Source: Cordylochernes scorpioides
Taxonomy: Eukaryota > Arthropoda > Arachnida > Pseudoscorpiones > Chernetidae
Direction of reading: 5' to 3'
Assembly (NCBI GenBank): GCA_030710605.1
Contig: CP092871.1
Coordinates: 69,224,294 to 69,288,293, forward strand
Length of the DNA stretch: 64,000 nt
In this document: in pieces, positions 8,025 through 61,759 of the stretch
Layout of the letters: each line of letters opens with the position of its first letter
How positions within the stretch are numbered: the first letter of the stretch is position 1
Position numbers and translations under genes: made by a program
The notes under the pieces: model-generated
The model's input: the letters and a program-made list of their open reading frames with translations, nothing else
Told to the model about the DNA's origin: nothing
The model's database searches: none

Positions 8025-8100
8025 GTGGACGTAGTCCACACACAAGGCAAAAGAAAAGGATCACATAGTGTAGAAAGTTTTTTTTTTTGAAGAAGAAGAA

Positions 8101-12398: not shown

Positions 12399-12404
12399 TT
12401 CCCA

Positions 12405-12815: not shown

Positions 12816-13209
12816 CAGAAAAGGAAGGTAAATTAAATTTAGGAAGTTTTACTTTACTTGTGGTTGTTTGATTTAGATCATCAATTTTGCTTGAAATGGC
12901 TGTACAAGATACTTTATTGATATCCGCCACTAAATTTCTAAGATTATCATTGTATTGCATAACACTAGAAAAGTAAACTTCATCATCAAATTCAGAAAAT
13001 GTTAAAAGATTACAATAAGTTTTTTCAATGTTAGATTTTATATCTAAAATATCTTGTTTAAATGTCTGTAAATTTGCATCATCCTTCGCTTCAATTATCT
13101 TGAGCGAAATTTGCTCAAAATAATCCACTTGTTTGAAATGAAATTCAAGAATATTTAAAGTAGCTTTAAATTTGGAAGCCATTTTGGCAGCCATCTTTAA
13201 TTTTTGCAT
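12742..13209 (-). pseudogene. BEL/Pao Gag, N-terminal part
   Basis: Starts MQKLKMAAKMASKFKATLN about 90 bases after the 5' LTR. It has a helical N-terminal half and then KVKLPKFNLPSFSGDVNEW, the Pao Gag signature. It ends by frameshift after FSLSIDSKYCSN. The nested element at 3.2-5.1 kb carries a related but clearly different Gag (KFELPHFYGDANSW), so two BEL/Pao families are present in the window. Confidence 0.85.
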
Positions 13210-13279
13210 TATTAATTTTAATAATATATTTCAAAATGAATTATAATTATTTATATTTAAATAATTATTTAATAGATTT

Positions 13280-13300
13280 ATTCCCGGGTTTCGGCACCAA
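13280..13300 (-). promoter_or_regulatory. Primer-binding site of BEL/Pao element
   Basis: Right after the 5' LTR on the minus strand lies TGGTGCCGAAACCCGGGA, complementary to a tRNA 3' end reading CCCGGGTTTCGGCACCA. The tRNA identity was not determined. Confidence 0.8.
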
Positions 13301-13700
13301 TGTTTTGTTTCCCACTTGGCAAATACGCAAGGAGGAAAAGCAGAATGATTGTTTACAAAACAATTTGTTCTCGTTAGGCTTAATTGAATAGAATGTTTTA
13401 TACTAGCTTAAAGAAACAAATGTACTTATCTTTGGTCAGGCAATTATCCCAAGCTTTACAAATGAATTTATTTTAACTCTCTTTACAATGAATATTTAAA
13501 GAATTTACAAAAGAATTAAAGCCGCAGCTGATAGGCCTTGTTGTTTAGTGGCGAGCGTCCTCAGAATATTCGAGAAGGTGGCGAGCTCTCCCTGGCGGTG
13601 CCGCCAGCTGGCCTCCCATTGGTCAGCGATGACGTAGCTCTTCTTTCTCTCACCGCTGCGCGCTGCCTTCTGCCACCTATGTTCAGAATAAAACTAAACA
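13301..13700 (-). repeat. 5' LTR of BEL/Pao element
   Basis: 400-bp partner of 7613-8012, TG...CA ends on both strands. Confidence 0.95.
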
Positions 13701-14247: not shown

Positions 14248-14419
14248 TGTTGTATAGTTATTATTTAATTAAACATTACTCACCAGATGAAATTATTATT
14301 ACAAATTGTTTATTACACTTTATATTTATATTTTTACATCAACACGTTGTTTACATTATACATCGTATTATTGTTTATGATGATGATCTCTAATATATTT
14401 TAAAACACAGAATACTACA
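14248..14419 (-). repeat. 3' LTR of Gypsy element
   Basis: 172 bp; minus strand starts TGTAGTATTCTGTG and ends ACAACA. Preceded on that strand by the purine tract AAGGAAGGAGGGAA (14420-14433). Confidence 0.93.
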
Positions 14420-14432
14420 TTCCCTCCTTCCT

Positions 14433-17400
14433 TTAGATGAAAGGAATCATGTCTTTATATCTTGATGATGGCTTGACGACTCTTCCACTCCTGGTGATCA
14501 CGGGTTCCTTGGTAGTCGGCAAGGGTGGAGAAACCTCTGGTGGCAACTGGTGAAGAGCCTCGGCATCAAGTCTATCTGAAACAACTGGGTTAAATGTAGA
14601 CCCTGTTCTACTTGAACTTGGTCGGTTTAAAGAAGTGTCCTTGTCTTGGTTTGAGGAATTATCATCTGGTATTTGTACATCAGAAGAGTTGAGGTGTTCA
14701 ATTCTTGTCGAATCTGAACTAAGATTTTCCTGGCTCTCTTCTGGAATCAAGTCAGAAATGCCTTGATTGGTCTCTTGAGTAGGAACATGTTTCAAATGTT
14801 TAGTATTTCTATGAATTATTTTCCCATTTTTAGTGTTGATTAATTTAAAAGAATTTATTGAAGTGTTTTCAAGAATGACATGATGTTCTAATCTGAAATT
14901 TGAATCAAGTTTTCCATTATTTGGATTTGCCACATAAACTAAATTTCCAATTACAAAATTATGAGGACTAGCTTTCCGAATTATATCATTATATGTTTTC
15001 ATTTTTTCTTTGTAGACCATATTGAATTCTTTGATGTTGGATTCATCTTCTTCTGCATCATTAACAAGTGAGCTTAATTTAGTTTTGATTTCTCTTGAAA
15101 ATAATAGGAATGCTGGAGTCTTTCCTGTAGATCTGTTTGGAGTAGTTCGGTAAGACATTAAAATTCTGGATAAATCTTCTTTCCAATCTTTCCCTTCTTC
15201 AGAACTTGAATTGAATTGTTTCTTTAGAAATCTATGGAATCTTTCTATCTTCCCATTACTTTTTGGGTAATAGGGTGAGGCTTTGATGTGCCTGATTCCA
15301 CATTCTTTTAAAAATCTTTCCATTGATGTACTTACAAACTGTAAGCCATTATCTATTACAACTTCATGTGGATAACCATGTCTTGCAAAAATCTCCATCA
15401 ATTTTTTAATAATTGTCTTGCTGGAAATGTCTTCTATTATCATTGCTTCAGGATATGAAGAATAGTAGTCGATCACTGTTAAAACATAATGATGGCCAAT
15501 TGGACCAACTATGTCAATTCCAAGTTTCATCCAAGGTTTTGATGGTAACGGAACTATTTGCAATGGTTGATCATTTATCAATGGTTGATTCCTTACACAA
15601 ATTGGACAGTTTCTAATCAAATTTTCAATATCAAAGTCCATGTTTATCCAAAAATATTTTTCTCTTAACAGTTGTTTGGTTCTTGTCATTCCTTGATGTG
15701 TTTCATGTGCAATTCTCAAGACTCTCTTTATTAGTTTTGAAGGTAGCAAAATTCTACTTCCTTTTAAGATAAGATTATCAAAAATTGAGAGTTCATCTTT
15801 AAACTTATAAAAACATTTGAATTCTTCATTCAAAGGATATGGCCAAACTCCCTTTTGAACCATATCTTTCAGTTTTTGAAACAAAGGATCTTGCTCTGTA
15901 CAAACTTTTATCTCTTTCAAAGACAGTGCTTGAAGCTCTTCAGAAGTGATGGATAAGACTTTATGAACATAGTCCTCCAGCCATTCTTCATCACTTGTGT
16001 TAGAAAGAGGTTGTCTTGAAAATATATCTGCAATATTTTGCTTTCCTTGAATGAATTCAATTTCAAAGTCATATGGTTGTAATCTCCAACTCAATCTTTG
16101 AATTCTTGGAGGCAAAACAGCTCCATTTTTAGGATTCAGCATATAGATTAGAGGTTTGTGATCTGTTTTTAACACAAATTTCCTTCCCCAAATATAGGTG
16201 TTAAAATGTTCAATTGCCCATACACATCCCAATGTCTCTTTTTCTATTTGTGAATATCTTTTTTCAGTATCAGTTAAGGATCTGCTGGCATATGCAATGG
16301 GTCTTTTAATGCCATTTTGTTGTGTTTGTATTAATACTGCTCCAAGACCAATAGGGCTTGCATCTGTGATTAATTCAGTTGGTGAGTTCAAGTTGTAATA
16401 TGCCAAGCATGGCTCTTTTGTTAGTGACTCTTTAAGATCCTGAAATGCTTTATTTGTTTTCAAATCCCAATTCCACCTAACCTTTTTTCTAGTCAAATTA
16501 TTTAGAGGTTCTGCCAATTTAGAAAAATTAGGTATGAATTTTCTTAAAAACCCACAAGTTCCTAAGAATGACCTTAACATCTCAATATTTTTTGGTATTG
16601 GAAAATTTAAGACTGCTTCTATTTTCCTATTATCAGGTTTAATACCTTCACTACTAACAATGTGACCTAAAATATCCAATTCTTCCATGGCAAATTTGCA
16701 CTTATTCCTGTTGAGCCTAATGCCTACTTTATCAAATCTTTGTAAGACTTTTCTAAGCCTTTCTTCTAGTTCTTGTCTATCTTTGGCGTAAACTACGACA
16801 TCGTCCAAGTAACAAATTACACCTTTCAAATCAAGCAAAATTGAATCCATTCCTTTCTGATATGCCTCTGGAGCACTTGATAGACCAAAAGGAACTTTAC
16901 AAAATCTGTAACAACCACGGTGCGTGATGAAAGTTGTAAGGGGTCTAGATTGAGGGTCTAAGTCAACCTTCCAAAACCCTTTTTTTGCATCCAGCTTTGC
17001 AAATACTTTAGCACCTTTAAGGGCATGTAACATATTGTCAATTGTAGGAATTGGATGTCTTTCTCTCAATATTGCTTTATTCACTTCCCGAAGGTCTATG
17101 CATAGTCTAATTTCCTCACTATCCCTTTTTGGAACAACTATTATGTTAGAAACCCATTCAGAACCTTGATGCACTTCTTCAATGATTCCATTCTCTAGCA
17201 TCTTATCAAGCTCTTGATTTACTGCTTCTACCATTGCATAAGGTATACGACGGCATCTCTGGGCAATGGGCCTATAGTTGTCTTTCAATGTCACTTTATG
17301 ACTATAGCCTTTTATAGTTCCAAGTCCATGGAAAAGATGTTCATGTTCTTGAACAAGAGTTTCTATATTAGTAGACATTGATTCATTTACATGATTTACC

Positions 17401-17891
17401 CTTTTAATTATACCTAGTTCAAAACTAGCCTTGCCTCCCAACAAAGACTCAACTTTTTTATCAATCACATAAATTTCTTTTGAAACTGAATTTTCTTTCC
17501 AAGAAATCACAGCATTGAAATAACCATAACATGGAAGAGGTCTATCTTGACCATAGGCAAAAAAGGTTCGGGTGGTGTCATGTAATTTTGGCATAATTTT
17601 ATGGCCATATAATCCAAGCATCTTATTATAGCTTATGAAAGTTCTATCACTCCCTGTATCAATTATCATATTTATTTCACTACCATCTATTTGCACTTTT
17701 TCTTTATTTTCAGCACCTGTATAGTAGGTATATTCATCTGAACTTTCACCTACTTCAGTCTTATTTTCTTCTTGTATGGTCTTAACTTTAGTTTGATTGA
17801 AACTTTTGTGGTTTCTATTATTATTTTGATTTGGGCGGTTCCTGCAAGCTCTAAAAAGATGTCCTAATTTATTGCAATATGAACAAGTCAT
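14433..17891 (-). CDS. Gypsy Pol polyprotein (PR-RT-RH-IN)
   Basis: 1152 codons. Residues 3-16 form a CCHC knuckle (CSYCNKLGHLFRAC); a second knuckle (CYRCGLDTHSAQEC) lies just upstream in the same frame, so the true protein starts in gag. Protease MIIDTGSDRTF is at about 75-85. RT has FAKLDAKKGFWKVDLD at about 297-312 and CYLDDVVVYA at 360-369. RNase H has LITDASPIGLGAVL at about 505. Integrase has HxxxH/CxxC (HETHQGMTRTKQLL ... CPIC), LGIDIVGPI, VVIDNGLQF and SNGKIERFH. The tail ends RSGRVVKPSSRYKDMIPFI. All catalytic residues are present. Confidence 0.93.
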   Translation of the reverse strand: MTCSYCNKLGHLFRACRNRPNQNNNRNHKSFNQTKVKTIQEENKTEVGESSDEYTYYTGAENKEKVQIDGSEINMIIDTGSDRTFISYNKMLGLYGHKIMPKLHDTTRTFFAYGQDRPLPCYGYFNAVISWKENSVSKEIYVIDKKVESLLGGKASFELGIIKRVNHVNESMSTNIETLVQEHEHLFHGLGTIKGYSHKVTLKDNYRPIAQRCRRIPYAMVEAVNQELDKMLENGIIEEVHQGSEWVSNIIVVPKRDSEEIRLCIDLREVNKAILRERHPIPTIDNMLHALKGAKVFAKLDAKKGFWKVDLDPQSRPLTTFITHRGCYRFCKVPFGLSSAPEAYQKGMDSILLDLKGVICYLDDVVVYAKDRQELEERLRKVLQRFDKVGIRLNRNKCKFAMEELDILGHIVSSEGIKPDNRKIEAVLNFPIPKNIEMLRSFLGTCGFLRKFIPNFSKLAEPLNNLTRKKVRWNWDLKTNKAFQDLKESLTKEPCLAYYNLNSPTELITDASPIGLGAVLIQTQQNGIKRPIAYASRSLTDTEKRYSQIEKETLGCVWAIEHFNTYIWGRKFVLKTDHKPLIYMLNPKNGAVLPPRIQRLSWRLQPYDFEIEFIQGKQNIADIFSRQPLSNTSDEEWLEDYVHKVLSITSEELQALSLKEIKVCTEQDPLFQKLKDMVQKGVWPYPLNEEFKCFYKFKDELSIFDNLILKGSRILLPSKLIKRVLRIAHETHQGMTRTKQLLREKYFWINMDFDIENLIRNCPICVRNQPLINDQPLQIVPLPSKPWMKLGIDIVGPIGHHYVLTVIDYYSSYPEAMIIEDISSKTIIKKLMEIFARHGYPHEVVIDNGLQFVSTSMERFLKECGIRHIKASPYYPKSNGKIERFHRFLKKQFNSSSEEGKDWKEDLSRILMSYRTTPNRSTGKTPAFLLFSREIKTKLSSLVNDAEEDESNIKEFNMVYKEKMKTYNDIIRKASPHNFVIGNLVYVANPNNGKLDSNFRLEHHVILENTSINSFKLINTKNGKIIHRNTKHLKHVPTQETNQGISDLIPEESQENLSSDSTRIEHLNSSDVQIPDDNSSNQDKDTSLNRPSSSRTGSTFNPVVSDRLDAEALHQLPPEVSPPLPTTKEPVITRSGRVVKPSSRYKDMIPFI

Positions 17892-17969
17892 TTTTTTAGC
17901 ACCACATTCTTGTGCTGAATGTGTATCTAATCCACAGCGATAACATTTAGGCTTTGAGGCACCTGAAAA

Positions 17970-18605
17970 TTATGGGGTACCTTGATTAGTGAATCTACCT
18001 TTGTTGAAATTATTAGCATTATAGTGCTTTTTAGGTTTATTTTGAACTCTATTTAGTGTTTGATCATTTTGAGGTTCAAGAAGTCTAATTTCTTTTCTAG
18101 AAATTTCTGACATTCTAGCAATATCAATGGTTTTTGACAGTGTCAAATTTTCTTGTTGCAACAATTTTTCTTTAAATTTTTTGTTGTTACATTTTTCAAT
18201 TATTTGGTCTCTTATCATATCAGCTTCTAAATTCCCAAATTCACAAGATTTAGAAAGCTCTCTTAAAGAAATTAGGTAGTTGTCGATCGATTCATCATCT
18301 TTCTGGACTCTTTGTCTAAATTTAAATCTCTCAGTGACCACATTTTTATGAGGTGTGAAATATTTATCTAAAGCCATTTTAGTTTGTTCATAATTTTCCT
18401 TTTCATCTGGCAAGTTGAAAAATATACGCTGTACATTTGGCCCTAAACAATGCAATAGAGTTGCTCTCTTAATTTCATCCGATTTTTTTGAAATTCCAGA
18501 TGCTATTTCAAAAATGGCATAGGATTCCATCCATTGCTTATATTCCGCAAATAAATTGCTGGAATTCATATTCATGGGTAACGGTGGCGTCAGGTTGGCT
18601 GCCAT
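17970..18605 (-). CDS. Gypsy Gag (capsid region)
   Basis: 211 codons beginning MAANLTPPLPMNMNSSNL shortly after the 5' LTR and a T-rich run. It contains FTPHKNVVTERFKFRQRVQ and SIDNYLISLRELSKSCEFG, typical of Gypsy capsids. It stops at TAA (17970-17972). The next codons (FSGASKPKCYRCG) continue in the same frame into both zinc knuckles and Pol, so a single stop separates capsid from nucleocapsid. A C-to-T change at a Gln codon is the simplest explanation; readthrough is possible. Confidence 0.88.
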   Translation of the reverse strand: MAANLTPPLPMNMNSSNLFAEYKQWMESYAIFEIASGISKKSDEIKRATLLHCLGPNVQRIFFNLPDEKENYEQTKMALDKYFTPHKNVVTERFKFRQRVQKDDESIDNYLISLRELSKSCEFGNLEADMIRDQIIEKCNNKKFKEKLLQQENLTLSKTIDIARMSEISRKEIRLLEPQNDQTLNRVQNKPKKHYNANNFNKGRFTNQGTP

Positions 18606-18639
18606 ACTTGTTTTTTTTTTTTTTTTTTTAGGGCTACAG

Positions 18640-18669
18640 TTATATTTTCAAATTCTCGTCGCCAATTTA
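18640..18669 (-). promoter_or_regulatory. Primer-binding site region of Gypsy element
   Basis: After the 5' LTR the minus strand reads TAAATTGGCGACGAGAATTT. TGGCGACGAGAA is likely the tRNA-complementary segment; the tRNA was not identified. Confidence 0.6.
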
Positions 18670-18841
18670 TGTTGTATAGTTATTATTTAATTAAACATTA
18701 CTCACCAGATGAAATTATTATTACAAATTGTTTATTACACTTTATATTTATATTTTTACATCAACACGTTGTGTACATTATACATCGTATTATTGTTTAT
18801 GATGATGATCTCTAATATATTTTAAAACACAGAATACTACA
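18670..18841 (-). repeat. 5' LTR of Gypsy element
   Basis: 172-bp partner of 14248-14419. Confidence 0.93.
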
Positions 18842-18846
18842 ATACC

Positions 18847-19550
18847 TATATCCCCATGTGTTATATAGTTTTAGTGTAATTGCCAATGTGACAGAAATAA
18901 AATTTCGAGTGAGTGACAGTCGGCGCCTGTAGAGGAAAAAGGTCCGAAAAACAAGTCGGGTTACCAGGCGTGCCCCTTTCTTGCTCAAACAGATCAGTCC
19001 GCTTTGAGACACGAGGATTGACAGATCCATCACAACAGATCTGCCCTGACCGGTGTCGGCTTCACTTACTCTCTCGCCATCTCTGTGGTGACATCCAACA
19101 TGCCTCGTCCTTTTGTTCAATCCCAATCACGCCTGAAACCACTTTAAACATTGTGATCACCACGACTGCAACCAATATGCCACACTGAATTCATCCAACA
19201 GCAACACCAACTACATTACAACATATATCAAATATGGTAGTGGGATTTTCTTTGATTAGATATTATACACTTAAAAAAGAAGTCTTGGTTAAAGTGTTTT
19301 ACTGAATCATGAACAAAACATCTTAGAGGACAGTAGAACGATATATAGCAATGGTCTTCATCAAACAATCCCCAAAAAGCCAGTTAGGCCTAAGTTAAAC
19401 ATAAAACATAATCACGCCATATATACTACGGTATTGGGACTTCTCTATGGACATGGGGGAATATAAACTGGATCCCGACATTGCCATGTCTTTATACCAT
19501 CAAATTTAAAGAAATGTGTACAATTATAAAAAAACGGCCCCCGAGAATAT
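18847..19550. other. No gene recognised
   Basis: A moderately GC-rich patch (18900-19190) with short opposing ORFs that resemble nothing I know; the rest is AT-rich. Confidence 0.4.
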
Positions 19551-23009: not shown

Positions 23010-23470
23010 TAAAGATGGCATATCGTGACCAGGAGCACATGTACCTTTTAGATGGCAGAGCGCCATTTAGTGGAACAGAAATCAACTAAACGTTGACTTA
23101 GCCTGTTCCCTGATATTTGGTCAACCCACGCCGTAGCTCTTTATAATAAATATATACGTGTGTGTGAAAAAAAATAAAAAGGTCAGGTGTTGATATTAAA
23201 AATATACTAGACATATCCTGACCACTAAATATAGGCGTTTTATAGATGGCAGAGCGCCATCTAGTGGAACAGAAATCAACTAAACGTTGATTTAGCCTGT
23301 TCCCTGATATTTGCCCAACCCATTTCCTTGATAAATCAAGAAAAGCCATCCACGAATGCGTTTCGGGTTGTTGGCCCTTGTCAGCGTGGAGCAGGCTGTA
23401 CTACTGCGACCAAAAATGTTTTGGTCCCAAAGGCTTCTTGAGAAACCAAGAAATGGGTTATTACATATAT
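23010..23470 (-). repeat. Hammerhead repeat family A, partial tandem
   Basis: Two partial units (23010-23117 and 23200-23470) share AGATGGCAGAGCGCCAT, the following GTGGAACAGAAATCAACTAA and TTAGCCTGTTCCCTGATATT. The second contains hammerhead 23350-23389. Related units are at 38596, 39011, 47060 and 54190. No ORF. The structure suggests retrozyme or PLE terminal-repeat units. Confidence 0.7.
23350..23389 (-). ncRNA. Hammerhead ribozyme, family A, inactivated
   Basis: Minus strand: stem I CCACG/CGTGG, core CTGACAA (G8 changed to A), stem II GGGC/ACCC with CAACA loop, GAAA, stem III region ACGCAT. The G8 change and broken stem III predict loss of cleavage. Confidence 0.7.
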
Positions 23471-28379: not shown

Positions 28380-28450
28380 TAAATATTAAAAATAAAAAGG
28401 CATATCCTGACCAGGAGCACATGTGCTTTTCAAAAGGCAGAGCGCCATAT
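28380..28450 (+). repeat. Fragment of hammerhead family A
   Basis: GGCATATCCTGACCAGGAGC, then ACATGTGCTTTTCA and GGCAGAGCGCCAT match the family A body at 38610-38660; the ribozyme part is absent. Confidence 0.65.
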
Positions 28451-30842: not shown

Positions 30843-31353
30843 CACAACTTTTCACAACGAAACAACGTTAAAATGCAATTACTATATGTGAGAAACCCCT
30901 ATTATATAATATCTTCTTTTCAACACATCATTGTAAGTGTCGTTACCGGCGCCTATTTTACATATAGTGTTGAAAATCGAATCGTTTGCATGTCATAGCA
31001 TCTTCTTCCTATCGTGTAAATTTAACTCTGTAGCATGTCGCCATCTTGGTGTAGAAATTTTGATAGCCAGTACTGTATTTTCAAAATAATATCGTTACAA
31101 ATCAGTACCATCTTTAAAATGTAGGCATCGCTTTCTTTTAATAAAAGAGGAGCACAGTGATCGTTGAATATATGTAAATAAAGATAAATTCCGTAGAAAT
31201 AGTGATACGCCTCTTTTATTTTGAAAATATGTAAATAGGTGATTTACATACAGCGAACGTAGTTGCAAACTACAGTTCACTATTAAGTAGAACTGCTCTT
31301 CACTGAAGGTTAATAACGAGTTTACAAAGTGGGAAGAGGAGCTTCTTTTTATT

Positions 31354-31413
31354 AGCATGCACATAAGCTTTCGGACACATCGTCCTTCATCAGATAAGAG
31401 TAATAAACACGCT
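31354..31413 (-). ncRNA. Hammerhead ribozyme at the 3' end of the minus-strand PLE
   Basis: Exact inverted copy of 35672-35731: CTGATGA, stem II GGAC/GTCC with GATGT loop, GAAA, AGCT stem III, distal stem I AGCGTG/CATGCT. Confidence 0.87.
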
Positions 31414-31610
31414 GAGGATCCATATATACACAAAGCTGAAAAGAAAATTTACATAACTGCAAAAGATAAAAGTATTTAAAGATAAAAATAAAAAATAAGA
31501 ACCAAATATGCTAAAAAAGAGATTATAGGGATTAAATGCTAATAAATCTGGACTAAGTACATATGCACTATGAATGGTGTTAATCAAGGGCAGGCAAATG
31601 CAACCTAAGG

Positions 31611-33956
31611 CTATTCACATAACATATGGTATTGTTCTGGTATATCTATATGCCTGTTGATGCTGTTTGTTTTTATTGACACAAATGCCTCTAGTAAAAG
31701 TCTTTGGTACTTATTATTGATATTGCTGTATAGAATGGATGGCTTTGATAGATTGAATGTATGACCGGTTTGTATAGAATGACTGTAAATAGGGGAATTT
31801 AGGTTTTTATTAGAGACGTTTCTGGAATGCTCAACCATTCTGATGGCGACGGATCTACCCGTCTCCCCGACATAAGTGGCATTACATTGGTCGCAAGAGA
31901 CGGAATAGACAGCACCACCAGAACGGAGAGCACTCGCATGAAGGGAAGATCTGGTAATGGGGTGTCGGATTAGTGTGGCGATGTTAGGTGGGTTCTGGAA
32001 GTATGTTGTAATGCCATGGTGCCTTAAAAACCTGGCTATGGTGATAGACTGGGGGCAAAAAGGAAGGGAGCAAATATTTCTGTGTATAGCTGGAGCACTG
32101 TTGTGGTGAGGGTCATGCATGTGTTTAAGAATAAAGGGGGTCGGGTAGCCGGATTTGGATAAATATGAAAATATTTTAGCCTTTTCTATTGTTTGGAATA
32201 ACGGGAGGGAACAATGAGTAAAGATACGTTTAGTGAGAGCTCTAACTGTATTGATTTTGTGTGGTATTGGGCAATGTGATCGGAAGTTTGTGTGGTGTGG
32301 GGGTGTGTTGTTTTTATAGTATACTGTGGTATGGAAACTGCTGGGGGTGCGTATGACTAGTGTATCTAGGAATGGTAGGACTGAGTGATTTTCTGTTTCA
32401 TGGGTGAAGGCTATGTCTGGGTGGAAGGAGTTGAGGTCAGATAGGATGTGAGAGGCAGATACCTCACTTACCAAGCAAAAGGTATCATCGATGTACCGCC
32501 TCCATAGAAAGATGTCTGAAGAATGGCGTGAAGTGATCCATTGGTCCAGTGACCTCATGACAACCTCAGCCACCACGGTTGAGAGGGGGCTACCCATGGG
32601 GGAGCCCTTGGTCTGCTTGAAAAACTGGGTATCAAATGTGAAGGTGGACATGCCTAGGCATATGGAAGTGAGCTCGACAACCGTCTCCGCGGTGAGGGTG
32701 TCTAACAGGGGGGCATTTTCGAGGAAAGTGCGTAAACTATTAATGATCAAGGGGTGGGCAAGGGAGAGATATAGAGACGTTACATCGAAAGAAACCATTA
32801 TGGACCTGGGGGGAGGTGTGAGGCTGGTGATATAGGACACAAACGAGGGGGAGTTTGCAATGGTATATTCCCATGGGGGAGACTGTAGAAGGGGGGTCAA
32901 GAAGTTGGACAAAAATTTTGACAGGGTATATGCCGGAGAGAGATGGTAAGATATGATTGGTCGGAGGGGAACATCGGGCTTGTGGATTTTTGGAAGGCCG
33001 TAAATGTAGGCTATTTGGGCGAGGTTAGCTGTGAAGTCGTTATATTGCTCTTTAGTGATCTGCTGAGACCTTTTTAATCTTAACAATAGTAAACGGAAAT
33101 TCTTAACGGATGTTTTATGATCCTGTTCAGTAATGGCAGAAAAAATAGAGTGTTGGTCGAGAACGTTTTGCATTTTTTGCTTGTAAACTGTGGTGTTGAG
33201 AATTACGGTCTGTGAGCCTTTGTCGGATTTTGTTATGACTATGTCTCTATTGCGTTTAAGACGGGAGATAACCCTGTTCATGGCTAGGGACGGTCTAGGG
33301 ATATTGTAGGGTCGTTGAAGGGTGGAGGTGACAAAATGTCTGATCCTATGGGTGTCTTGGTGGTTAAGGCCTCTGAGAGCGGGTTCCACACCAGCTAAGA
33401 TGCGAGGAATATCAGAAGGCCCAGGCAGTCTGTATTTTAGGCCCAATGACAGAATCTCAGCATCAGCAGATGGCAAGACATAGTCCGAGAGGTTGACCAC
33501 TCCTTGGGGTGACTGGGGAAGATGGGCTTCTACTAGATAGGCAGGGAAGTTGTACTTCTTGATCCAGTGATGAAGCTTGGAGTTGTGACGTTGCGTTATA
33601 TCGTTCTTCTGGAGCCGAATGTCCCTTGTGATGGATTGCAACAGATCGGCCATTTCTGGATTGGTTAGTAGCTGAGAGACCAGAAAGATCAATCCCTTGA
33701 CGGACTTAGAAATAAATCGGATGTTGGAGTGGCAACCTTTGATTCTAGACGATAACAGGTGGAGTTGGGCGCGGCGTATGACGACGGATGAAAATGGATT
33801 GCGAACAGGATCCCTGATTCGAAGGGATGGAGGTATAAAATCAGCCGTTTCACACAGTTTGTTAAAGCTCAAATGGAGGCGCCATCTTGACAACTGTAAC
33901 GATTTCTTTCGTAACTGATAGGTATAACGAGGTAGGTCTTCAGCGGAAGGATTCAT
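31611..33956 (-). CDS. PLE reverse transcriptase with GIY-YIG endonuclease
   Basis: An uninterrupted 781-codon ORF starting MNPSAEDLPRYTY. The Penelope-type RT spans about residues 230-600: ITKSDKGSQTVIL (about 241-253), YGLPKIHKPDVPLRPI (319-334), SFDVTSLYLSL with Asp391, QTKGSPMGSPLS (motif B, about 448-459) and RRYIDDTF with the YIDD at 488-491. The C-terminus (from about 680) is a GIY-YIG nuclease: VYSVSCDQC, TYVGETGRS, the Arg, and a later Glu (LLLEAF). CDQC could help bind zinc. The enzyme would nick DNA and copy PLE RNA. With intact ORF and ribozyme this copy may be competent. Confidence 0.95.
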   Translation of the reverse strand: MNPSAEDLPRYTYQLRKKSLQLSRWRLHLSFNKLCETADFIPPSLRIRDPVRNPFSSVVIRRAQLHLLSSRIKGCHSNIRFISKSVKGLIFLVSQLLTNPEMADLLQSITRDIRLQKNDITQRHNSKLHHWIKKYNFPAYLVEAHLPQSPQGVVNLSDYVLPSADAEILSLGLKYRLPGPSDIPRILAGVEPALRGLNHQDTHRIRHFVTSTLQRPYNIPRPSLAMNRVISRLKRNRDIVITKSDKGSQTVILNTTVYKQKMQNVLDQHSIFSAITEQDHKTSVKNFRLLLLRLKRSQQITKEQYNDFTANLAQIAYIYGLPKIHKPDVPLRPIISYHLSPAYTLSKFLSNFLTPLLQSPPWEYTIANSPSFVSYITSLTPPPRSIMVSFDVTSLYLSLAHPLIINSLRTFLENAPLLDTLTAETVVELTSICLGMSTFTFDTQFFKQTKGSPMGSPLSTVVAEVVMRSLDQWITSRHSSDIFLWRRYIDDTFCLVSEVSASHILSDLNSFHPDIAFTHETENHSVLPFLDTLVIRTPSSFHTTVYYKNNTPPHHTNFRSHCPIPHKINTVRALTKRIFTHCSLPLFQTIEKAKIFSYLSKSGYPTPFILKHMHDPHHNSAPAIHRNICSLPFCPQSITIARFLRHHGITTYFQNPPNIATLIRHPITRSSLHASALRSGGAVYSVSCDQCNATYVGETGRSVAIRMVEHSRNVSNKNLNSPIYSHSIQTGHTFNLSKPSILYSNINNKYQRLLLEAFVSIKTNSINRHIDIPEQYHMLCE

Positions 33957-33993
33957 GATGAATTCCAGGATAAAAAGCGTAAAAATGAGCGAA

Positions 33994-34082
33994 TTAAGTA
34001 GAACTGCTCTTCACTGAAGGTTAATAACGAGTTTACAAAGTGGGAAGAGGAGCTTCTTTTTATTAGCATGCACATAAGCTTT
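33994..34082 (-). repeat. Partial 5' terminal repeat (pLTR) of the PLE
   Basis: Repeats 31284-31372 in direct orientation. Its outer edge lies at AAAGCTTATGTGC, seven bases from the predicted hammerhead cut. Confidence 0.85.
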
Positions 34083-35474
34083 TACGGCCTTCCAAAAATC
34101 CACAAGCCCGATGTTCCCCTCCGACCAATCATATCTTACCATCTCTCTCCGGCATATACCCTGTCAAAATTTTTGTCCAACTTCTTGACCCCCCTTCTAC
34201 AGTCTCCCCCATGGGAATATACCATTGCAAACTCCCCCTCGTTTGTGTCCTATATCACCAGCCTCACACCTCCCCCCAGGTCCATAATGGTTTCTTTCGA
34301 TGTAACGTCTCTATATCTCTCCCTTGCCCACCCCTTGATCATTAATAGTTTACGCACTTTCCTCGAAAATGCCCCCCTGTTAGACACCCTCACCGCGGAG
34401 ACGGTTGTCGAGCTCACTTCCATATGCCTAGGCATGTCCACCTTCACATTTGATACCCAGTTTTTCAAGCAGACCAAGGGCTCCCCCATGGGTAGCCCCC
34501 TCTCAACCGTGGTGGCTGAGGTTGTCATGAGGTCACTGGACCAATGGATCACTTCACGCCATTCTTCAGACATCTTTCTATGGAGGCGGTACATCGATGA
34601 TACCTTTTGCTTGGTAAGTGAGGTATCTGCCTCTCACATCCTATCTGACCTCAACTCCTTCCACCCAGACATAGCCTTCACCCATGAAACAGAAAATCAC
34701 TCAGTCCTACCATTCCTAGATACACTAGTCATACGCACCCCCAGCAGTTTCCATACCACAGTATACTATAAAAACAACACACCCCCACACCACACAAACT
34801 TCCGATCACATTGCCCAATACCACACAAAATCAATACAGTTAGAGCTCTCACTAAACGTATCTTTACTCATTGTTCCCTCCCGTTATTCCAAACAATAGA
34901 AAAGGCTAAAATATTTTCATATTTATCCAAATCCGGCTACCCGACCCCCTTTATTCTTAAACACATGCATGACCCTCACCACAACAGTGCTCCAGCTATA
35001 CACAGAAATATTTGCTCCCTTCCTTTTTGCCCCCAGTCTATCACCATAGCCAGGTTTTTAAGGCACCATGGCATTACAACATACTTCCAGAACCCACCTA
35101 ACATCGCCACACTAATCCGACACCCCATTACCAGATCTTCCCTTCATGCGAGTGCTCTCCGTTCTGGTGGTGCTGTCTATTCCGTCTCTTGCGACCAATG
35201 TAATGCCACTTATGTCGGGGAGACGGGTAGATCCGTCGCCATCAGAATGGTTGAGCATTCCAGAAACGTCTCTAATAAAAACCTAAATTCCCCTATTTAC
35301 AGTCATTCTATACAAACCGGTCATACATTCAATCTATCAAAGCCATCCATTCTATACAGCAATATCAATAATAAGTACCAAAGACTTTTACTAGAGGCAT
35401 TTGTGTCAATAAAAACAAACAGCATCAACAGGCATATAGATATACCAGAACAATACCATATGTTATGTGAATAG
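34068..35474 (+). pseudogene. 5'-truncated second copy of the PLE ORF
   Basis: From residue 319 (YGLPKIHKP) to the end it matches the minus-strand ORF with no amino-acid difference that I can see; the first codons MHISF come from the junction. It retains the RT catalytic Asp residues and the whole GIY-YIG domain but lacks the N-terminal 318 residues, so a full enzyme cannot be made from it. Confidence 0.93.
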
Positions 35475-35671
35475 CCTTAGGTTGCATTTGCCTGCCCTTG
35501 ATTAACACCATTCATAGTGCATATGTACTTAGTCCAGATTTATTAGCATTTAATCCCTATAATCTCTTTTTTAGCATATTTGGTTCTTATTTTTTATTTT
35601 TATCTTTAAATACTTTTATCTTTTGCAGTTATGTAAATTTTCTTTTCAGCTTTGTGTATATATGGATCCTC

Positions 35672-35731
35672 AGCGTGTTTATTACTCTTATCTGATGAAG
35701 GACGATGTGTCCGAAAGCTTATGTGCATGCT
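35672..35731 (+). ncRNA. Hammerhead ribozyme at the 3' end of the plus-strand PLE
   Basis: Distal stem I AGCGTG (35672-35677) pairs CATGCT (35726-35731). Core CTGATGA 35692-35698, stem II GGAC/GTCC (35700-35712), GAAA 35713-35716, stem III AGCT, cleavage base U at 35720, proximal stem I of about 3 bp. AATAAA follows. Hammerheads in PLE terminal repeats are an established feature of these elements. Confidence 0.88.
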
Positions 35732-35799
35732 AATAAAAAGAAGCTCCTCTTCCCACTTTGTAAACTCGTTATTACAGTTCACTATGATAATAATAGCCT

Positions 35800-36369: not shown

Positions 36370-36845
36370 GCGCCACAGAATCGAATTTGTGAAATTCAGA
36401 CAAAAGCCAACCTGTGTCTACTGGTGTGGCAAATTCTTCTCATCTCTATTTTTATGTTCTGTTCTGATATGATGAACTCAAATATTGTTTTAATGCATTT
36501 TTAAAGGGAGAGGTGCCTCTCTTGGTACATGGAGGCTATCCTCCTGCATTTTTATGTGGCAAAATGACTTTTTATCAGTCCTTATGATTCACCAGCTTAA
36601 GCACCTTTTTGGTCAATTCGACTGATTTCATGACTCCTCTCGTGGGATGTTATGATATCGAAGCCGCCCCTTTATTGATGAAGGCCAAAGCCCGAAACCA
36701 TGGTATACAGGTTGTTGGCTTTTTGTCTGAATTTTGGTGTTGTAGTTCATTCTTTATCATCCCCATTACGCTTTGTACTGGGTTAATAAACAATGGGAAT
36801 GGTTTTAATGCATTTTGAAGGGAGAGGTGCCTCTTTTGACACATA
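36370..36845 (+). repeat. Hammerhead repeat family B copy
   Basis: A scrap (AAATTCAGACAAAAGCCAAC, 36390-36410) is followed by a fuller unit (36590-36790) whose order matches 28566-28875, including TCACCAGCTTAAGCACC, GATATCGAAGCCGCCCC and the hammerhead. Confidence 0.7.
36669..36711 (+). ncRNA. Hammerhead, family B, near-intact
   Basis: Core reads TTGATGA (C3 changed to T); stem II GGC/GCC with CAAA; GAAA; stem III ACCATGGT intact; stem I CCTTTA/TACAGG with one mismatch. The C3 change should impair cleavage. Confidence 0.75.
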
Positions 36846-38190: not shown

Positions 38191-38595
38191 AACAATTCTC
38201 CCGTACTACTTTTAGTGTCGCGCTGAGCCACGAAAAAATGTTATAATACTTGAACAATTATTTATTGCCAAGATAAAGCTACAGTAGACATCTAAAGTAA
38301 CAAGACTACTCAACTGCTAACACTGGACTGGACTCCTCAACATAATTCATACGTCCTATTTATAGCACAAATAAGTTAAACCATGTAAATTGTGCTACAA
38401 CAAAGAACAGATATGCAAAGACACAACACAGAGAGGAACAACTAAGTCTTACCTCTAGTTGGCAACTATGTCAATGGAGGACTGTCTTGGAGAAGTCTGA
38501 TTGGAGAGGTACGGTTTTATCTGATATAATATAATATTCGTTTTAAAAAAAAATACTTGCGCGCACATATGTACATTAATGATATATATAAATAA

Positions 38596-38870
38596 ATATT
38601 AAAAATAAAAAAGCATATCCTGACCAGGAGCACATGTGCTTTTCAGAAGGCAGAGCGCCATCTGGTGGAATAGAAATCAATTATTCATTGACAAATCAAG
38701 AAAAGCCATCCACGAACGCGTTTCGCGCTGTTGGCGCTCGTCAGCGTGGGGTAGGCTGTACCACTGCGACCAAAAAGATTTTTTTGGTCCCAGTGGCTTC
38801 CTGAAAAACCAAGAAATGGGTATTTAAGGCCAAACTTGCGTAAATACGCTTAACACATGAAAAAAATAAT
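38596..38870 (-). repeat. Hammerhead repeat family A copy
   Basis: Body GCATATCCTGACCAGGAGCA, GGCAGAGCGCCATCTGGTGG, then hammerhead 38710-38749, then ACCACTGCGACCAAAAAG. Non-coding. Confidence 0.75.
38710..38749 (-). ncRNA. Hammerhead ribozyme, family A, intact, covarying stem II
   Basis: Minus strand: stem I CCACG/CGTGG, core CTGACGA, stem II GCGC/GCGC around CAACA, GAAA, stem III ACGCGT, cleavage base U. Against the GGGC/GCCC of the copy at 47115 both sides of the second stem II pair changed together, keeping the pairing. Confidence 0.88.
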
Positions 38871-39010
38871 AGAAAAAAAAAGAAGAAATAAAATAAAACA
38901 CCTGACCTTTTTAGTTTTTTTTTTCTATTGTTTTTTCATAAATAAATATATATGTGTGTGAAAAATAATAAAAAAATATATATAAAAGGTCAGGTGTTGA
39001 TATTAAAAAT

Positions 39011-39270
39011 AAAATAGGAATTTCCTGACCGTGTTCACATGAGCGTTTCTAGATGGCAGAGCGCCATCTAGTTGAACAAAAAAAAAACTAAACATTTATT
39101 TAACTTGTTCCGTGATTTTTGGCCAACCCAATTTCTTGATAGCAATAAATTGGGTTGGCCAAATATCCCGGAACAAGTTAAATAAATGTTTAGTTTTTTT
39201 TTTGTTCAACTAGATGGCGCTCTGCCATCTAGAAATGTACATGTGAGCACGGTCAGGATATTCCTATTTT
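39011..39270. repeat. Family A fold-back without ribozyme
   Basis: Two family A bodies in inverted order; the arms include CTAGATGGCAGAGCGCCATC and AACTAAACATTTATTTAACT. The hammerhead segment has been lost from both arms. Confidence 0.8.
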
Positions 39271-39275
39271 ATATG

Positions 39276-45223: not shown

Positions 45224-46698
45224 AGTATTTAAGTCAGAAACTTTCTAGACAGCTGTGTTAGATTGTATACAGTCATCACATGAGAGCTCTGAATGTTGAC
45301 AGCTGCAATAATGAAGTCTGTGTGTGCCTGCCTACAGCCATTATTGTCCTCGACAATCCCCGACCTGGACCTGACGACCAAAGACACGCTCAATTCCGCA
45401 GGACTCTGAGGACTTATCTTGGATGGAATGGATCCTCACACCTAGGACCTCCTGATACTGAGGACCTGCAGGATTGTTTCAGTCCACACCACTGGACAGC
45501 CACGGTCTAGATGGAACTGTCGGACCTCCCTCCATATGGACCACGTGAGTAACAACGTCAACATCTCACACACCAGACACATGGCCACAGTTTTACATTC
45601 GAGCATTCAATGTAAACATTTAGTGGACACATTAGGAAGAAGGTGAATATATCAATGGCAGAAATCTCCTAGGTAAAGCTTTTCCTTCGATAAATTATTA
45701 AATGTTTCTTAATATTAAAATGATATAATTTTAATAAAATATATTTTTTTCGAAACTATTATAGACGAGTATGATTCTTTTAAAAATTAAATAATATATA
45801 CTGCCCTTACTGCAATGGAAAAATTAATGGGAAGGCCTGGGTCATCAGTGGTGAACCTTCCCAGCGGTTTCGCCAGTTTAATCTACCATATCGCTGTTAT
45901 ATTGCATTTTTCGATCTTCCTTTTATAGTGATACTGATACTAGACTCTTGGAATGAGTATTTTAGATGAATTATGGACATAAGCTTTGAGGACAGTAGAA
46001 TTACATATAATTATCAATATATATAATGCTTCGAGAAAGATTAAACTGGCGAAACCGCTGGGAAGGTTCACCACTGATGAACCAGGCCCTCCCATTAATT
46101 TTTCCATTGCAGTAAGGGCAGTAGATATTATTTAATTTTTAAAAGAATCATACTCGTCTATAATAGTTTCGAAAAAAATATATTTTATTAAAATTATATC
46201 ATTTTAATATTAAGAAACATTTAATAATTTATCAAAGGAAAAGCTTTACCTAGGAGATTTCTGCCATTGATATATTCACCTTCTTCCTAATGTGTCCACT
46301 AAATGTTTACATTGAATGCTCGAATGTAAAACTGTGGCCATGTGTCTGGTGTGTGAGATGTTGACGTTGTTACTCACGTGGTCCATATGGAGGGAGGTCC
46401 GACAGTTCCATCTAGACCGTGGCTGTCCAGTGGTGTGGACTGAAACAATCCTGCAGGTCCTCAGTATCAGGAGGTCCTAGGTGTGAGGATCCATTCCATC
46501 CAAGATAAGTCCTCAGAGTCCTGCGGAATTGAGCGTGTCTTTGGTCGTCAGGTCCAGGTCGGGGATTGTCGAGGACAATAATGGCTGTAGGCAGGCACAC
46601 ACAGACTTCATTATTGCAGCTGTCAACATTCAGAGCTCTCATGTGATGACTGTATACAATCTAACACAGCTGTTTAGAAAGTTTCTGACTTAAATACT
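45224..46698. repeat. 1.47-kb near-perfect palindrome
   Basis: Arms run from 45224 (AGTATTTAAGTCAGAAAC) inward and from 46698 inward; matched points at 45224/46698 and 45749/46173 have the same sum, so I see no net length change between the arms. Each arm contains the same 76-codon ORF (45280-45510 plus, 46412-46642 minus; identical) and a family F half ending at TTTCGAAACTATTATAGACG. The centre (about 45910-46030) is not symmetrical. The ORF (MRALNVDSCNNEVCVCLPTA at its start) resembles nothing I know. Confidence 0.88.
45815..46130. repeat. Two family F core motifs facing each other
   Basis: Minus copy: CTGGCGAAACCGC, TGGGAAGG, TTCACCACTGATGA, CCCAGG, CCTTCCCA. Plus copy: the same with ACCAGG and CCCTCCCA. 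They form the inner part of the palindrome. Confidence 0.75.
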
Positions 46699-47059
46699 CT
46701 ATTCAGCATGTGTCACTCTAAGTGGATAAAACGCTGTTAATTTGACTATGATGTTTATTTCTTTGATATATAAATGCGTTTCCCACTTGGTTTTATTTAA
46801 GCCTCCTCTGAATGTGATAGATTTGTTAAAAGGGAAACAGGAACTAATCGTTTAGGAAAAAAGTGATTCGTATTTAGATGAATCCTGTTTGAATTCTGTT
46901 TCGTTTTGTCTGTAATTTTAATAAAAAAAGTGAAAGATGATTGTGTGTCAAACAAAGTAGTAACAGAACGAATACAACAAGAGATACCATGATTTCATTG
47001 TTATTTCTCCGTGGACTACACACATACAACTTTAACTACACATAATTACCCGTTTCATG

Positions 47060-47320
47060 ATTTTTCAGGATGCCTTAAATGACCAATTTTTTTGGTCGTT
47101 GAGGTACAGCTTGCACCACGCTGATGAGGGCCAACAGCCCGAAACGCGTCCGTGGTTAGCTTTTCATGATTAATCAAGAATGGGTATTTGGCCAATTCTG
47201 GAATAATTAAAAATCAACGAGAATAGTTGATATTTATTCCGATAGATGGCGCAAGCCATCAGCAACTTTCTGTTGCACGATAAGGAGATGCCTTTTTTCA
47301 TACATACAAAACCATATTTA
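47060..47320 (+). repeat. Hammerhead repeat family A copy (plus orientation)
   Basis: Hammerhead 47107-47162 followed by GATTAATCAAGAATGGGTAT, CGATAGATGGCGCAAGCCAT and GTTGCACGATAAGGAGATGC. The distal part recurs at 52850-53030. Confidence 0.75.
47107..47162 (+). ncRNA. Hammerhead ribozyme, family A, intact
   Basis: Proximal stem I ACCACG (47115-47120) pairs CGTGGT (47151-47156); distal AGCT/AGCT adds four pairs across an internal loop. Core CTGATGA 47121-47127, stem II GGGC/GCCC with CAACA loop, GAA, stem III ACGCGT (47144-47149), cleavage base C at 47150. Every conserved position fits a type I hammerhead. Confidence 0.92.
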
Positions 47321-52765: not shown

Positions 52766-52849
52766 TAGGTTAAGATTCCATAAATTAGAATGGAACTTCT
52801 AAGTTCTTCAAGGGATCTACCAGAATAAGTAACAATCTTAGAAGATTGC

Positions 52850-53030
52850 AACTGAAATTTGCTGATGGCTTGCGCCATCTATCGGAATAAATATCAACTA
52901 TTCTCGTTGATTTCTAATTATCCTAGAATTGGTTAATTACCCATTCTTGATTAATCAAGAAAAGCTAACCAAAGCCATCAGCAACTTTCAGTTGCACGAT
53001 AAGGAGATGCCTTTTTCATAATTTATGCAC
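52850..53030. repeat. Family A body without ribozyme
   Basis: Inverted joining of two family A bodies: GCTGATGGCTTGCGCCATCT at the left and GCCATCAGCAACTTTCAGTT at the right, meeting at AGAAAAGCTAACC where the hammerhead should follow. Confidence 0.65.
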
Positions 53031-53169
53031 CTTATCCCAGTACAATATCACATTTGTGCTATTTTTTCACAATCTTAGAAGATATTACGCCAGAAGATCA
53101 GATCAAGATAAGGAATGTTCAAATGAATCACAAAATATTCGAAAAACGCAATATGTTTCTTTATTGCGA

Positions 53170-54059: not shown

Positions 54060-54382
54060 TATATTACTTCTTTAGTCAGTAATATGTAAACACGATAGAA
54101 AGAAAAGGTGTACATTTTAAATCTTTACGATGGGCTTTAATGCAAATCATTACCTGAAGATATATATATATTGGTAAAACACACACAAATATATATGTAG
54201 AAAAAAATATAAAAGGTTAGGTCTTGATATTAAGAACAAATTAGGCATATCCTGACTTCTAACATGAGCGTTTTTTAGATAGCAGAGCGCCATCTAGTGG
54301 AACAGAAATCAACTAAACATTGATTTAGCCTGTTCCCTGATATTTGGCCAACCCATTTTCTTGATAAATCAAAAAATGCCAA

Positions 54383-54422
54383 CCACGAACGCGTTTCGGG
54401 TTGTTGGCCCTCGTCAGTGTGG
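54383..54422 (-). ncRNA. Hammerhead ribozyme, family A, core intact
   Basis: Core CTGACGA, stem II GGGC/ACCC (three pairs plus C-A) with CAACA loop, GAAA, stem III ACGCGT, base U, stem I CCAC/GTGG. Confidence 0.78.
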
Positions 54423-54687
54423 TGCAGGTTGTACCTCTACGACTAAAAATCTTTTGGATATATATGTATTTGAACATATTAGGTTGTGGGAAAAAATAGT
54501 TACAAAAGGGAAATTATGCTGAGACCAGGTTGGTATATTAAGAAAAATGAATCTCCGGATGGTGAAACTGAAAATTGCTGATAGCTTGCGTCATCTGTCG
54601 GAATAAATATCAACGAATCGTTGATTTTTAATTATTCCAGAATTTTCCAAATACCCTTTTTCTCTCTTAATTAACCAAAAATATCTG

Positions 54688-54729
54688 ACAATGTACGCGT
54701 TTCAGGTTGTTAGCCCTCATCAGCGTTAT
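54688..54729 (-). ncRNA. Hammerhead ribozyme, family A, core intact but weak stem II
   Basis: Core CTGATGA, stem II GGGC/ACCT with TAACA loop (two strong pairs plus a wobble), GAAA, stem III ACGCGT, base A, stem I about ATAACG/CATTGT with one mismatch. Confidence 0.7.
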
Positions 54730-54787
54730 GTAAGCTATATTGATGTGCATTTTAATATGTCAATTCAATAAATTCATTTTAATCCTT

Positions 54788-61017: not shown

Positions 61018-61359
61018 AACTTTTTTCTACAAGTTTCTTTTAATAAAATACATTGTCCGGATTGTATTTATACATATGATCAAATGTTAATTACAATCTT
61101 TCTTTACAAATACAATCTTTTTAAAATAAAAGACATTTGTACACAGGTTGTGTACTCATAAATATGATCAAATATCCATTACAATACCTTTCTTTATTTC
61201 TGAGGTCTCGATGACCCGCTATCATCCTTGTCAGGAGGCGCTCTACACACTTTGCAATATTATCAAAATTCAGCTCACGATTTTGTTCCCTGATAATATA
61301 TTGTCCAAGCGATTATTCAACTTATGATATGGACGCAAACTTTGTGATATCTTCTTAAC

Positions 61360-61713
61360 TCGGCCTTCACGATTTCTCGTGTCATCCTTACACGGGGCCC
61401 ATGCTAATCTTCTCTGTATCGTTCCTATTGTAGTAGTTGTACCGCGGAACTGGTATCGCAGGGGCCATGCTAATCTTCTCTGTATCGTTCCCATTTTAGT
61501 AGTTGTACCGCCGAACATGTATCGCAGGGGCCATGCTTATCTTCTCTGTATCGTTCCAATTTTAGTAGTTGTACCGCCGAACATGTACCGCAGGGGCCAT
61601 GCTAATCTTCTTTGTATCGTTCCAATTTTAGTAGTTGTACCGCCGAACATGTACCGCAGGGGCCATGCTAATCTTCATTGTGGCGTTCCAATTTTAGTAG
61701 TTGTACCGTCGAA
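61360..61713 (-). ncRNA. U6: Tandem array of U6 snRNA fragments (pseudogenes)
   Basis: On the minus strand five copies of the U6 5'-to-central region start at 61713, 61647, 61581, 61515 and 61449, exactly 66 bases apart. Each has CTAAAATTGGAACGATACAG or close variants, AGAAGATTAGCATGGCCCC (AGC triad) and GCGGTACA. Units 3-5 keep ACAGAGA; units 1-2 are changed there. The last unit continues into the U6 3' part (AAGGATGACACGAGAAATCG). No convincing TATA or upstream promoter element precedes the array, so I call these pseudogenes. Confidence 0.88.
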
Positions 61714-61759
61714 CAAGCGTGACAGAGAAAGTGGGTCGCAGGAATGGCGCAAATAAAGA

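Follow-up and report, generated by a model that had tools for sequence, protein, structure and literature searches.

Paired changes in the hammerhead ribozyme of a pseudoscorpion retrozyme, and an insertion anatomy resembling that of Penelope-type elements

Small hammerhead-bearing repeats have been described in several animals, and two systems are especially close to the one analyzed here. Animal non-LTR retrozymes are tandem repeats of 150 to 450 bp that carry a type I hammerhead ribozyme; they are described as having a GC content below 50%, a self-paired monomer, and a very high copy number in genomes that also contain a Penelope-type element (PMC7229834). In one of them, HHR_Amex1 of the axolotl, helix III consists of a single pair plus a palindromic tetraloop, and this ribozyme is weak as a monomer and better as a dimer (PMC7229834). 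Retrozymes are suspected of using Penelope-like elements for their mobility (PMC7229834, PMC7761336, PMC8969392). The second system is pDo500, a repeated hammerhead of Dolichopoda cave crickets, for which 19 compensatory changes in stems I and II were reported from 13 of 198 sequences, along with C/T variation at position 7 and a hammerhead that is more conserved than the remaining repeat (PMC2837043).

We examined 64,000 nt of the pseudoscorpion Cordylochernes scorpioides (C9:69224294-69288293, hereafter the window) and searched the 2.62-Gb genome, comprising 24 contigs, to which it belongs. Judged by their sequence, the elements under study are 338- to 352-bp hammerhead repeats of the non-LTR retrozyme kind, that is, nonautonomous retroelements. 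They share with the animal non-LTR retrozymes all of the traits listed above, with HHR_Amex1 the architecture of helix III, and with pDo500 the compensatory changes in stems I and II, the variation at position 7, and the greater conservation of the ribozyme. Representative monomers, one per subfamily, measure 350 and 338 nt, with GC contents of 0.400 and 0.399 and with 60 and 64% of bases self-paired. Arrays have spacings of 338, 349 to 352, and 114 bp, with up to 5 motifs in line. Unlike the tandem repeats described in PMC7229834, most clusters on contig C1 hold one exact motif (62 of 74 in its first 7.3 Mb, where copies with a broken motif are invisible to the search). The 114-bp spacing comes from L041 (C1, at about 4,128,700) and represents a shortened tandem unit.

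The features of the window that concern these elements are as follows.

38704..38757, minus strand: type I hammerhead including stem I, GCG subfamily, with predicted cleavage between 38715 and 38714
38736, minus strand: 5' partner of stem II pair 2, C here and G in the other subfamily
38726, minus strand: 3' partner of stem II pair 2, G here and C in the other subfamily
38590..38892, minus strand: minus arm of the insertion that contains this hammerhead, monomer positions 174 round to 161
38897..38939, plus strand: short plus arm of the same insertion, monomer positions 163-208
38588..38599, no strand: left copy of the candidate target-site duplication ATAAATAAATAT, A+T only
38938..38949, no strand: right copy of the candidate target-site duplication ATAAATAAATAT, A+T only
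38963..39274: second two-arm insertion, no hammerhead, minus arm 38963-39141 and plus arm 39132-39274
47043..47297, plus strand: GGG-subfamily copy with its hammerhead at 47108-47161 and 96% identity to the L030 monomer
52832..53083: two-arm GGG-subfamily insertion between ACAATCTTAGAAGAT duplications, arms 52847-52971 (minus) and 52973-53071 (plus)
54202..54449, minus strand: retrozyme copy with a GGGC/ACCC hammerhead, in the clade of GCG copies
54487..54739, minus strand: degenerate retrozyme copy with a GGGC/ACCT hammerhead
23169..23458, minus strand: copy in the GCG clade whose core is broken (CTGACAA), with a GCG-like stem I and a GGGC/ACCC stem II

Another hammerhead-like motif, CTGATGAGGGACATAGCCCGAAA, with 5 pairs in stem I, lies at 28657-28622 (minus strand). 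Beside it, at 28382-28448, is a fragment of a retrozyme tail, and this region resembles 36588-36761 in both orientations. The window contains several other features. A BEL/Pao-type retrotransposon open reading frame (Peptidase_A17) at 7613-13600 is flanked by two 300-bp repeats, and because these are 100% identical, the insertion is possibly recent. A second LTR-type element at 14248-18847 (RVT_1, RNase H, and integrase) has flanking repeats that are 98% identical and a PNMA-like open reading frame. An inverted repeat of 661 nt, 99% complementary with a 153-nt spacer, occupies 45224-46698. Finally, 61347-61720 (minus strand) holds a full-length match to U6 snRNA and, after it, a tandem array in which a 66-bp unit corresponding to U6 positions 1-65 is repeated four times; the fourth unit scores below the gathering score.

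The first-pass annotation of this DNA had reported a compensatory change in stem II between two of the hammerheads, and the double change is real: GCGC/GCGC at 38744-38710 (minus strand) corresponds to GGGC/GCCC at 47121 (plus strand). The first copy reads CTGACGA GCGC CAACA GCGC GAAACGCGT at 38744-38716 (full string CTGACGAGCGCCAACAGCGCGAAACGCGT), and the second reads CTGATGA GGGC CAACA GCCC GAAACGCGT at 47121-47149 (full string CTGATGAGGGCCAACAGCCCGAAACGCGT), so that stem II pair 2 is C-G at 38736/38726 and G-C at 47129/47139. The annotation also held that the loop, core, and stem III were kept. This is accurate for the loop CAACA and for helix III, ACGCGT, but not for the variable position 7, which is C in one copy and U in the other; H17, at the cleavage site, differs as well (U in the 38744 copy and C in the 47121 copy). 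Both copies have the fixed core and an NUH triplet (CUGACGA, GAAA, and GUU at 38744; CUGAUGA, GAAA, and GUC at 47121). The ribozyme at 38744 lies on the minus strand and, with stem I, covers 38757-38704. Its layout comprises an outer stem, AGCC/GGCU, an internal loop, an inner stem of up to 6 pairs, a stem II of 4 pairs, and helix III as the palindrome ACGCGU; the stem I internal loop and a stem II loop of CAACA or CAAAA are present in the hammerheads. Stem I pair 6 of the 38744 copy is broken (C x A at 38750/38709), at a place where the GCG subfamily mostly has U-A. Exact matches of CTGANGAN{8,30}GAAACGCGT number four in the 64-kb window and zero in 100 shuffles. In two of these four exact copies, and in a degenerate fifth copy (23384), pair 4 of stem II is C x A.

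Predicted folds of both copies form stems I and II, together with an extra helix that pairs core letters with ACGCGU, and circular folds of both monomers give the same two hammerhead stems and the same extra helix. The hammerhead fold has energies of -17.4 and -17.0 kcal/mol, compared with -17.7 and -18.2 kcal/mol for the best fold, and is therefore 0.3 and 1.2 kcal/mol weaker. Folding energies are no better than those of shuffled sequences (z of -0.8 for the 38744 copy and -0.9 for the other), and the predicted fold of copy 54417 is one other than the hammerhead. No hammerhead family in Rfam reaches its gathering threshold; RF02275 (Hammerhead_HH9) scores 27.3 and 25.7 bits (25.7 for the 38744 copy) against a gathering score of 52, which lowers the case for membership in RF02275 and not the assignment as a hammerhead.

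Genome-wide, the pattern CTGANGAN{8,20}GAAACGCGT has 22,046 + 22,259 matches (44,305), compared with 4 + 4 for a reversed control pattern. Stem II was tallied in the 36,581 motifs, all with intact cores, that have G at 10.1, C at 11.1, and 13-nt arms. Here pair 10.2/11.2, which is pair II-2, is G-C in 17,303 and C-G in 16,168; the remainder comprises 820 with G and another partner, 686 with C and another partner, and 1,604 with A or T at 10.2. Because the G-C and C-G forms together make up 91.5% of the motifs, the stem II change separates two subfamilies, and a standard pair is present at II-2 in 95 of 100 among the first matches listed. The double change, presented earlier as an event in the 38744 copy, is instead a subfamily mark common to 16,168 motifs, and this count rules out a change private to that copy. 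On contig C1, at about 138.4 to 139.0 Mb, a local cluster of the GCG subfamily shares T at 11.3, which suggests a larger repeat unit that carries the hammerhead. The exact motif has 0 matches in IMG/VR; a relaxed motif matches 1 viral and 18 bacterial contigs, which is near chance (about 13 calculated by hand for 19 fixed bases, seven spacings, and 257 Gb).

A midpoint-rooted tree of 81 distinct copies, drawn from 75 genome loci plus the window, groups every one of the 30 sampled copies that carry C at 10.2 within a single 34-member clade (support of 0.995). The other four members of the clade are GGGC copies (L086, L089, and window copies 54417 and 23384), which may be prechange lineages or reversals. 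With this root, G is reconstructed as ancestral at 10.2, and the principal substitution is from G to C (support of 0.995), with a possible reversion to G at the base of the C clade (support of 0.73); a separate analysis of 68 copies, described below, labels its single double change CG to GC. An ancestral G-C pair at II-2 is thus favored but not secure. Window copy 23384 combines a GCG-type stem I with a GGGC/ACCC stem II, and window copy 54417 retains A-U at stem I pair 6. These copies look like successive steps, in a tentative order, of one lineage within a single window, and the stem II change is most simply read as having arisen once, at the root of a single clade or close to it.

The annotation had further called the double change strong evidence for the RNA fold. 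We assessed this first with a tree-based null in which the substitutions on each branch were reshuffled over columns (200 replicates), using 68 of the 81 copies; the other 13, with a foreign or shifted stem I, were excluded, and stem I was drawn one pair short, with pair 22-63 absent from the stem list. In this analysis, pair II-2 comes sixth among 2,485 column pairs, with an E value of 4.9 over all column pairs, which rules it out as significant covariation by itself. The top-scoring column pair is the unpaired combination N7-H17, and unpaired columns are linked as tightly as stem pairs. Moreover, the loci were picked by their stem II state, and therefore II-2 cannot be judged from the fetched sample. 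Such results, together with the confinement of the sampled C-G copies to a single clade, are what would be expected if the subfamilies simply differed at many sites, the pairing were coincidental, and the fold were unselected. Three unpaired sites (position 7, H17, and a stem I loop site) are likewise fixed between the subfamilies.

Nevertheless, we regard this explanation by linkage as improbable, as the fixed differences in the stems occupy six positions that form three complete complementary pairs. This comparison used 19 GGG rows with U7 and 21 GCG rows at a 75% threshold, with 13 of 53 rows that belong to neither subfamily set aside; a simple draw gives such an arrangement a probability of 4.6e-5, or about 7e-4, calculated by hand, when II-2 is left out. 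Also against linkage, three of the top nine column pairs in the 68-copy analysis are stem pairs (hypergeometric probability of 1.5e-5, with the cut at nine chosen post hoc), namely, II-2, an outer stem I pair (U-A versus C-G), and the sixth inner stem I pair (A-U versus U-A).

A second test considered 17 stem pairs of a fold that was derived from the same alignment, which favors it, and used 54 of 57 rows and 150 replicates; the 38744 copy is among the 3 rows dropped, because its alignment outside the ribozyme is gapped. Two of the 17 pairs pass, the sixth inner stem I pair (E value of 0.005) and II-2 (E value of 0.028), compared with 21 of 19,306 for any column pairs, while the other 15 fail, including both outer stem I pairs (E values of 0.3 and 0.88). 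Covariation at II-2 above phylogenetic expectation is therefore found among the 17 stem pairs and not among all column pairs, and the choice of loci by their stem II state biases this result. Across 15 stem pairs in 49 distinct rows, 95.8% of cells are paired, with a covariation score of 0.246; sliding the partners gives no more than 41.9% and 0.052, respectively. Three of five pairing measures beat all 500 shuffles; the two that do not are the number of pairs changed on both sides (5, reached in 98 of 500 shuffles) and the number of further pair types (122 of 500).

The two representative monomers are identical at 43 of 54 hammerhead positions and at 181 of 276 aligned positions elsewhere, where 28 further columns are gapped. 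Six of the 11 hammerhead differences form the three pairs, five lie in loops, at position 7, and at H17, and none lies in the fixed catalytic core, although the invariance of the core and of helix III, a single A-U pair within ACGCGU, is built into the search pattern. Compensated states are found outside the ribozyme too, and these again argue against linkage. A second hairpin about 50 nt downstream of the predicted cleavage site occurs in five fully complementary states (GGAATAA/TTATTCC, GGAACAG/CTGTTCC, GGAGCAA/TTGCTCC, GGAGTAA/TTACTCC, and GGAACAA/TTGTTCC). It is fully complementary in 37 of the 47 rows, out of 57, that could be parsed (the 3' arm of two was misread), and one of its pairs changed from C-G to U-A twice on the tree. 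What stands of the claim for the fold is that pairing is kept and that the hammerhead has further changes of this paired type; the II-2 pair alone is no stronger than linkage. Taken together, the base changes in matched pairs suggest that the folded shape was kept during the spread of the elements.

Paired changes can also arise without selection, in one step, if a polymerase switches templates and copies one arm of a hairpin into the other (quasi-palindrome correction). The G-C to C-G and A-U to U-A changes, two of the three, are double transversions with no route through a wobble pair, and so a one-step copying event is possible for them. Mismatched forms are also few, with G-G in about 17 (counted by eye) and C-C in about 22, each out of about 100 mismatched places listed; hence no large intermediate subfamily is visible, and L089 is the single candidate for a mismatched intermediate on the stem between the subfamilies. 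Still, in stem I both pair 6 and the outer pair span the whole ribozyme rather than one short hairpin, outer pair 17-66 shows U-G intermediates in 4 of 49 distinct rows, and the loop between the stem II arms is unchanged. We therefore consider template switching unlikely, if slightly less so than linkage.

If selection on the fold is the cause of the paired changes, the copies now resident in the genome indicate where it did not act. At pair II-3, A occurs at 10.3 in 1,249 motifs, T occurs at 11.3 in 761, and both occur in 41, where independence expects 26.0 (Fisher p of 0.004). This 1.6-fold excess needs no pairing, since A at 10.3 associates at least as strongly with a change at the nonpartner position 11.2 (11 of 100 motifs listed, counted by eye, compared with about 4% overall). 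At II-2, in strand-symmetric contexts, the pair-breaking combination A x C (806) is more frequent than the pair-keeping G-U (501), with a p of 3e-17 that is inflated by clusters of local copies. Likewise, U-G (379) does not exceed C x A, at an approximate number near 410 that was extrapolated from A in 61 of 101 rows among the matches listed. The proposal that the fold was under selection after the copies split is thus unsupported for inserted copies, in which II-3 is near independence and wobble-keeping changes are not in excess; with 806 A x C against 501 G-U motifs, resident copies show no sign of being held by selection for pairing. Those whose cores are intact change irrespective of it. 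It follows that selection, if it is the cause, acted on the RNA of the spreading source lineages.

Very probably, then, this is the type I hammerhead of a non-LTR retrozyme in which pairing was kept on source lineages while inserted DNA copies decay freely. Under this reading, arrays would be transcribed, and the hammerhead would cut the array RNA into monomers, probably acting as a dimer, as helix III is merely the self-complementary ACGCGU. The RNA monomers would then be circularized and copied back into DNA. Offspring would be left only by lineages whose RNA still folds and cuts, and in this way pairing would be kept along the source lineages. From sequence data, we infer self-cleavage, a circular RNA, and selection as the cause of the paired changes. 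Compared by description with pDo500, in which compensatory changes were found in 13 single sequences (PMC2837043), those reported here are subfamily-wide. With tens of thousands of copies, selection on RNA in active lineages becomes separable from neutral decay among the resident ones, two processes that cannot be distinguished from a compensatory change between repeats alone.

Neither the ribozyme nor its compensation is of a new kind, and the more interesting part is the signature of insertion. Within the initial 7.3 Mb of C1, neighboring exact motifs separated by under 1.5 kb comprise 18 pairs in line, 7 head-to-head, and 1 tail-to-tail. For a closer description of this anatomy, we used 62 loci (61 of the 75 genome loci plus the window, with 14 overlapping loci left out) and took as arm ends the points where BLAST similarity to two monomers stops. 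These loci contain 159 arms, with 41 complete head-to-head pairs whose 5' ends abut, compared with 7 tail-to-tail contacts. The 5' arm ends are scattered over the entire monomer. The 3' ends cluster at two sites away from the hammerhead, A (about positions 150 to 160) and B (about positions 195 to 208); among the 154 arms that are not truncated by a locus boundary, the 3' end falls at A in 76, at B in 50, and at neither site in 28. The 41 pairs comprise 28 A/B, 2 AA, 1 BB, and 10 with another end, so that A/B accounts for 28 of 31 classifiable pairs. After the removal of L021 as a near-copy of L020, A/B accounts for 27 of 30, where 48% is expected (p of 1.6e-6).

The edges of the insertions carry short repeats. 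At least 8 bp are shared near the edges in 23 of 27 A/B pairs, compared with 34% in mixed pairings, and the figures without TA runs are 11 of 14 and 7.7%. Target-site duplications of more than 4 bp, a trait of non-LTR retrozymes, are accordingly present. In the window, the ATAAATAAATAT duplication around the insertion with the 38744 hammerhead is weak because it is A+T only, and the ACAATCTTAGAAGAT duplication at 52832..53083 is clearer, with one arm there ending at monomer position 128, outside A. No target-site duplication was found at the two-arm insertion 38963-39274. As the elements contain many hairpins and are found as inverted pairs, their palindromes might have been kept as DNA hairpins for insertion and not for a ribozyme. 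Selection at the DNA level is nevertheless very improbable, given that the unpaired, fixed catalytic nucleotides are identical between monomers that are 66% identical outside the ribozyme and that the 3' ends of insertions cluster away from the hammerhead.

The window also contains a Penelope-type element with the same two-arm anatomy.

31272..35785: Penelope-type insertion of two head-to-head arms, minus arm to 31284 and plus arm 34081 to 35773

The arms meet at 34080/34081, are 100% complementary over 1,701 nt, and have 3' ends offset by about 27 nt. A minimal hammerhead motif lies near each 3' end, at 31393-31369 (minus strand) and 35692-35716 (plus strand), and the 12-bp repeat ACAGTTCACTAT is found at both edges of the insertion. 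A Pfam search of its two open reading frames returned RVT_1 only.

Penelope-like elements as described in PMC3846280 have the same features as the two-arm retrozymes, including inverted arms, of which head-to-head is the commonest form, a short tail on one arm (31 bp in Penelope), 5' truncation, and target-site duplications of 8 to 10 bp in several copies; some Penelope copies have direct repeats only or no duplication. A purified Penelope-like element (PLE) protein cleaves and extends each of the two DNA strands, with copying initiated internally, and the tail corresponds to the stretch between two internal start sites (PMC11167929). The systems differ in that the retrozyme unit is just 338 to 352 bp with 5' ends over the whole monomer, and in that its two end sites are offset by about 48 to 50 nt, compared with 30 to 40 bp for PLE tails (PMC3846280, PMC11167929). 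Among the open-licence papers listed by our searches, we found no report of a two-arm anatomy for retrozymes; the word "inverted" occurs in PMC11722881 and PMC4918200, while "inverted" and "head-to-head" are absent from the main text of PMC7229834 and from PMC7761336 outside its reference list.

Inverted arms are not unique to Penelope-like elements. Twin priming of LINEs also yields them, but with a random second start. By analogy, we infer that the retrozymes here were inserted by machinery of the Penelope kind, and we lean toward a general two-site, two-arm model in which Penelope-type machinery would insert animal retrozymes by acting on the two ends of a single staggered cut. In this model, reverse transcription of the circular RNA would start at two fixed internal sites about 48 to 50 nt apart, one for each DNA end. 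Copying would run for at least one round, and the two cDNAs would meet head-to-head at a random point. If true, the model would account for the arrays and their inverted arrangement, for 5' ends that are scattered and 3' ends that fall at two sites, and for the duplications, and it would tell which machinery moves retrozymes. The two-site, two-arm signature would thereby offer a concrete, testable mark of Penelope-type mobility.
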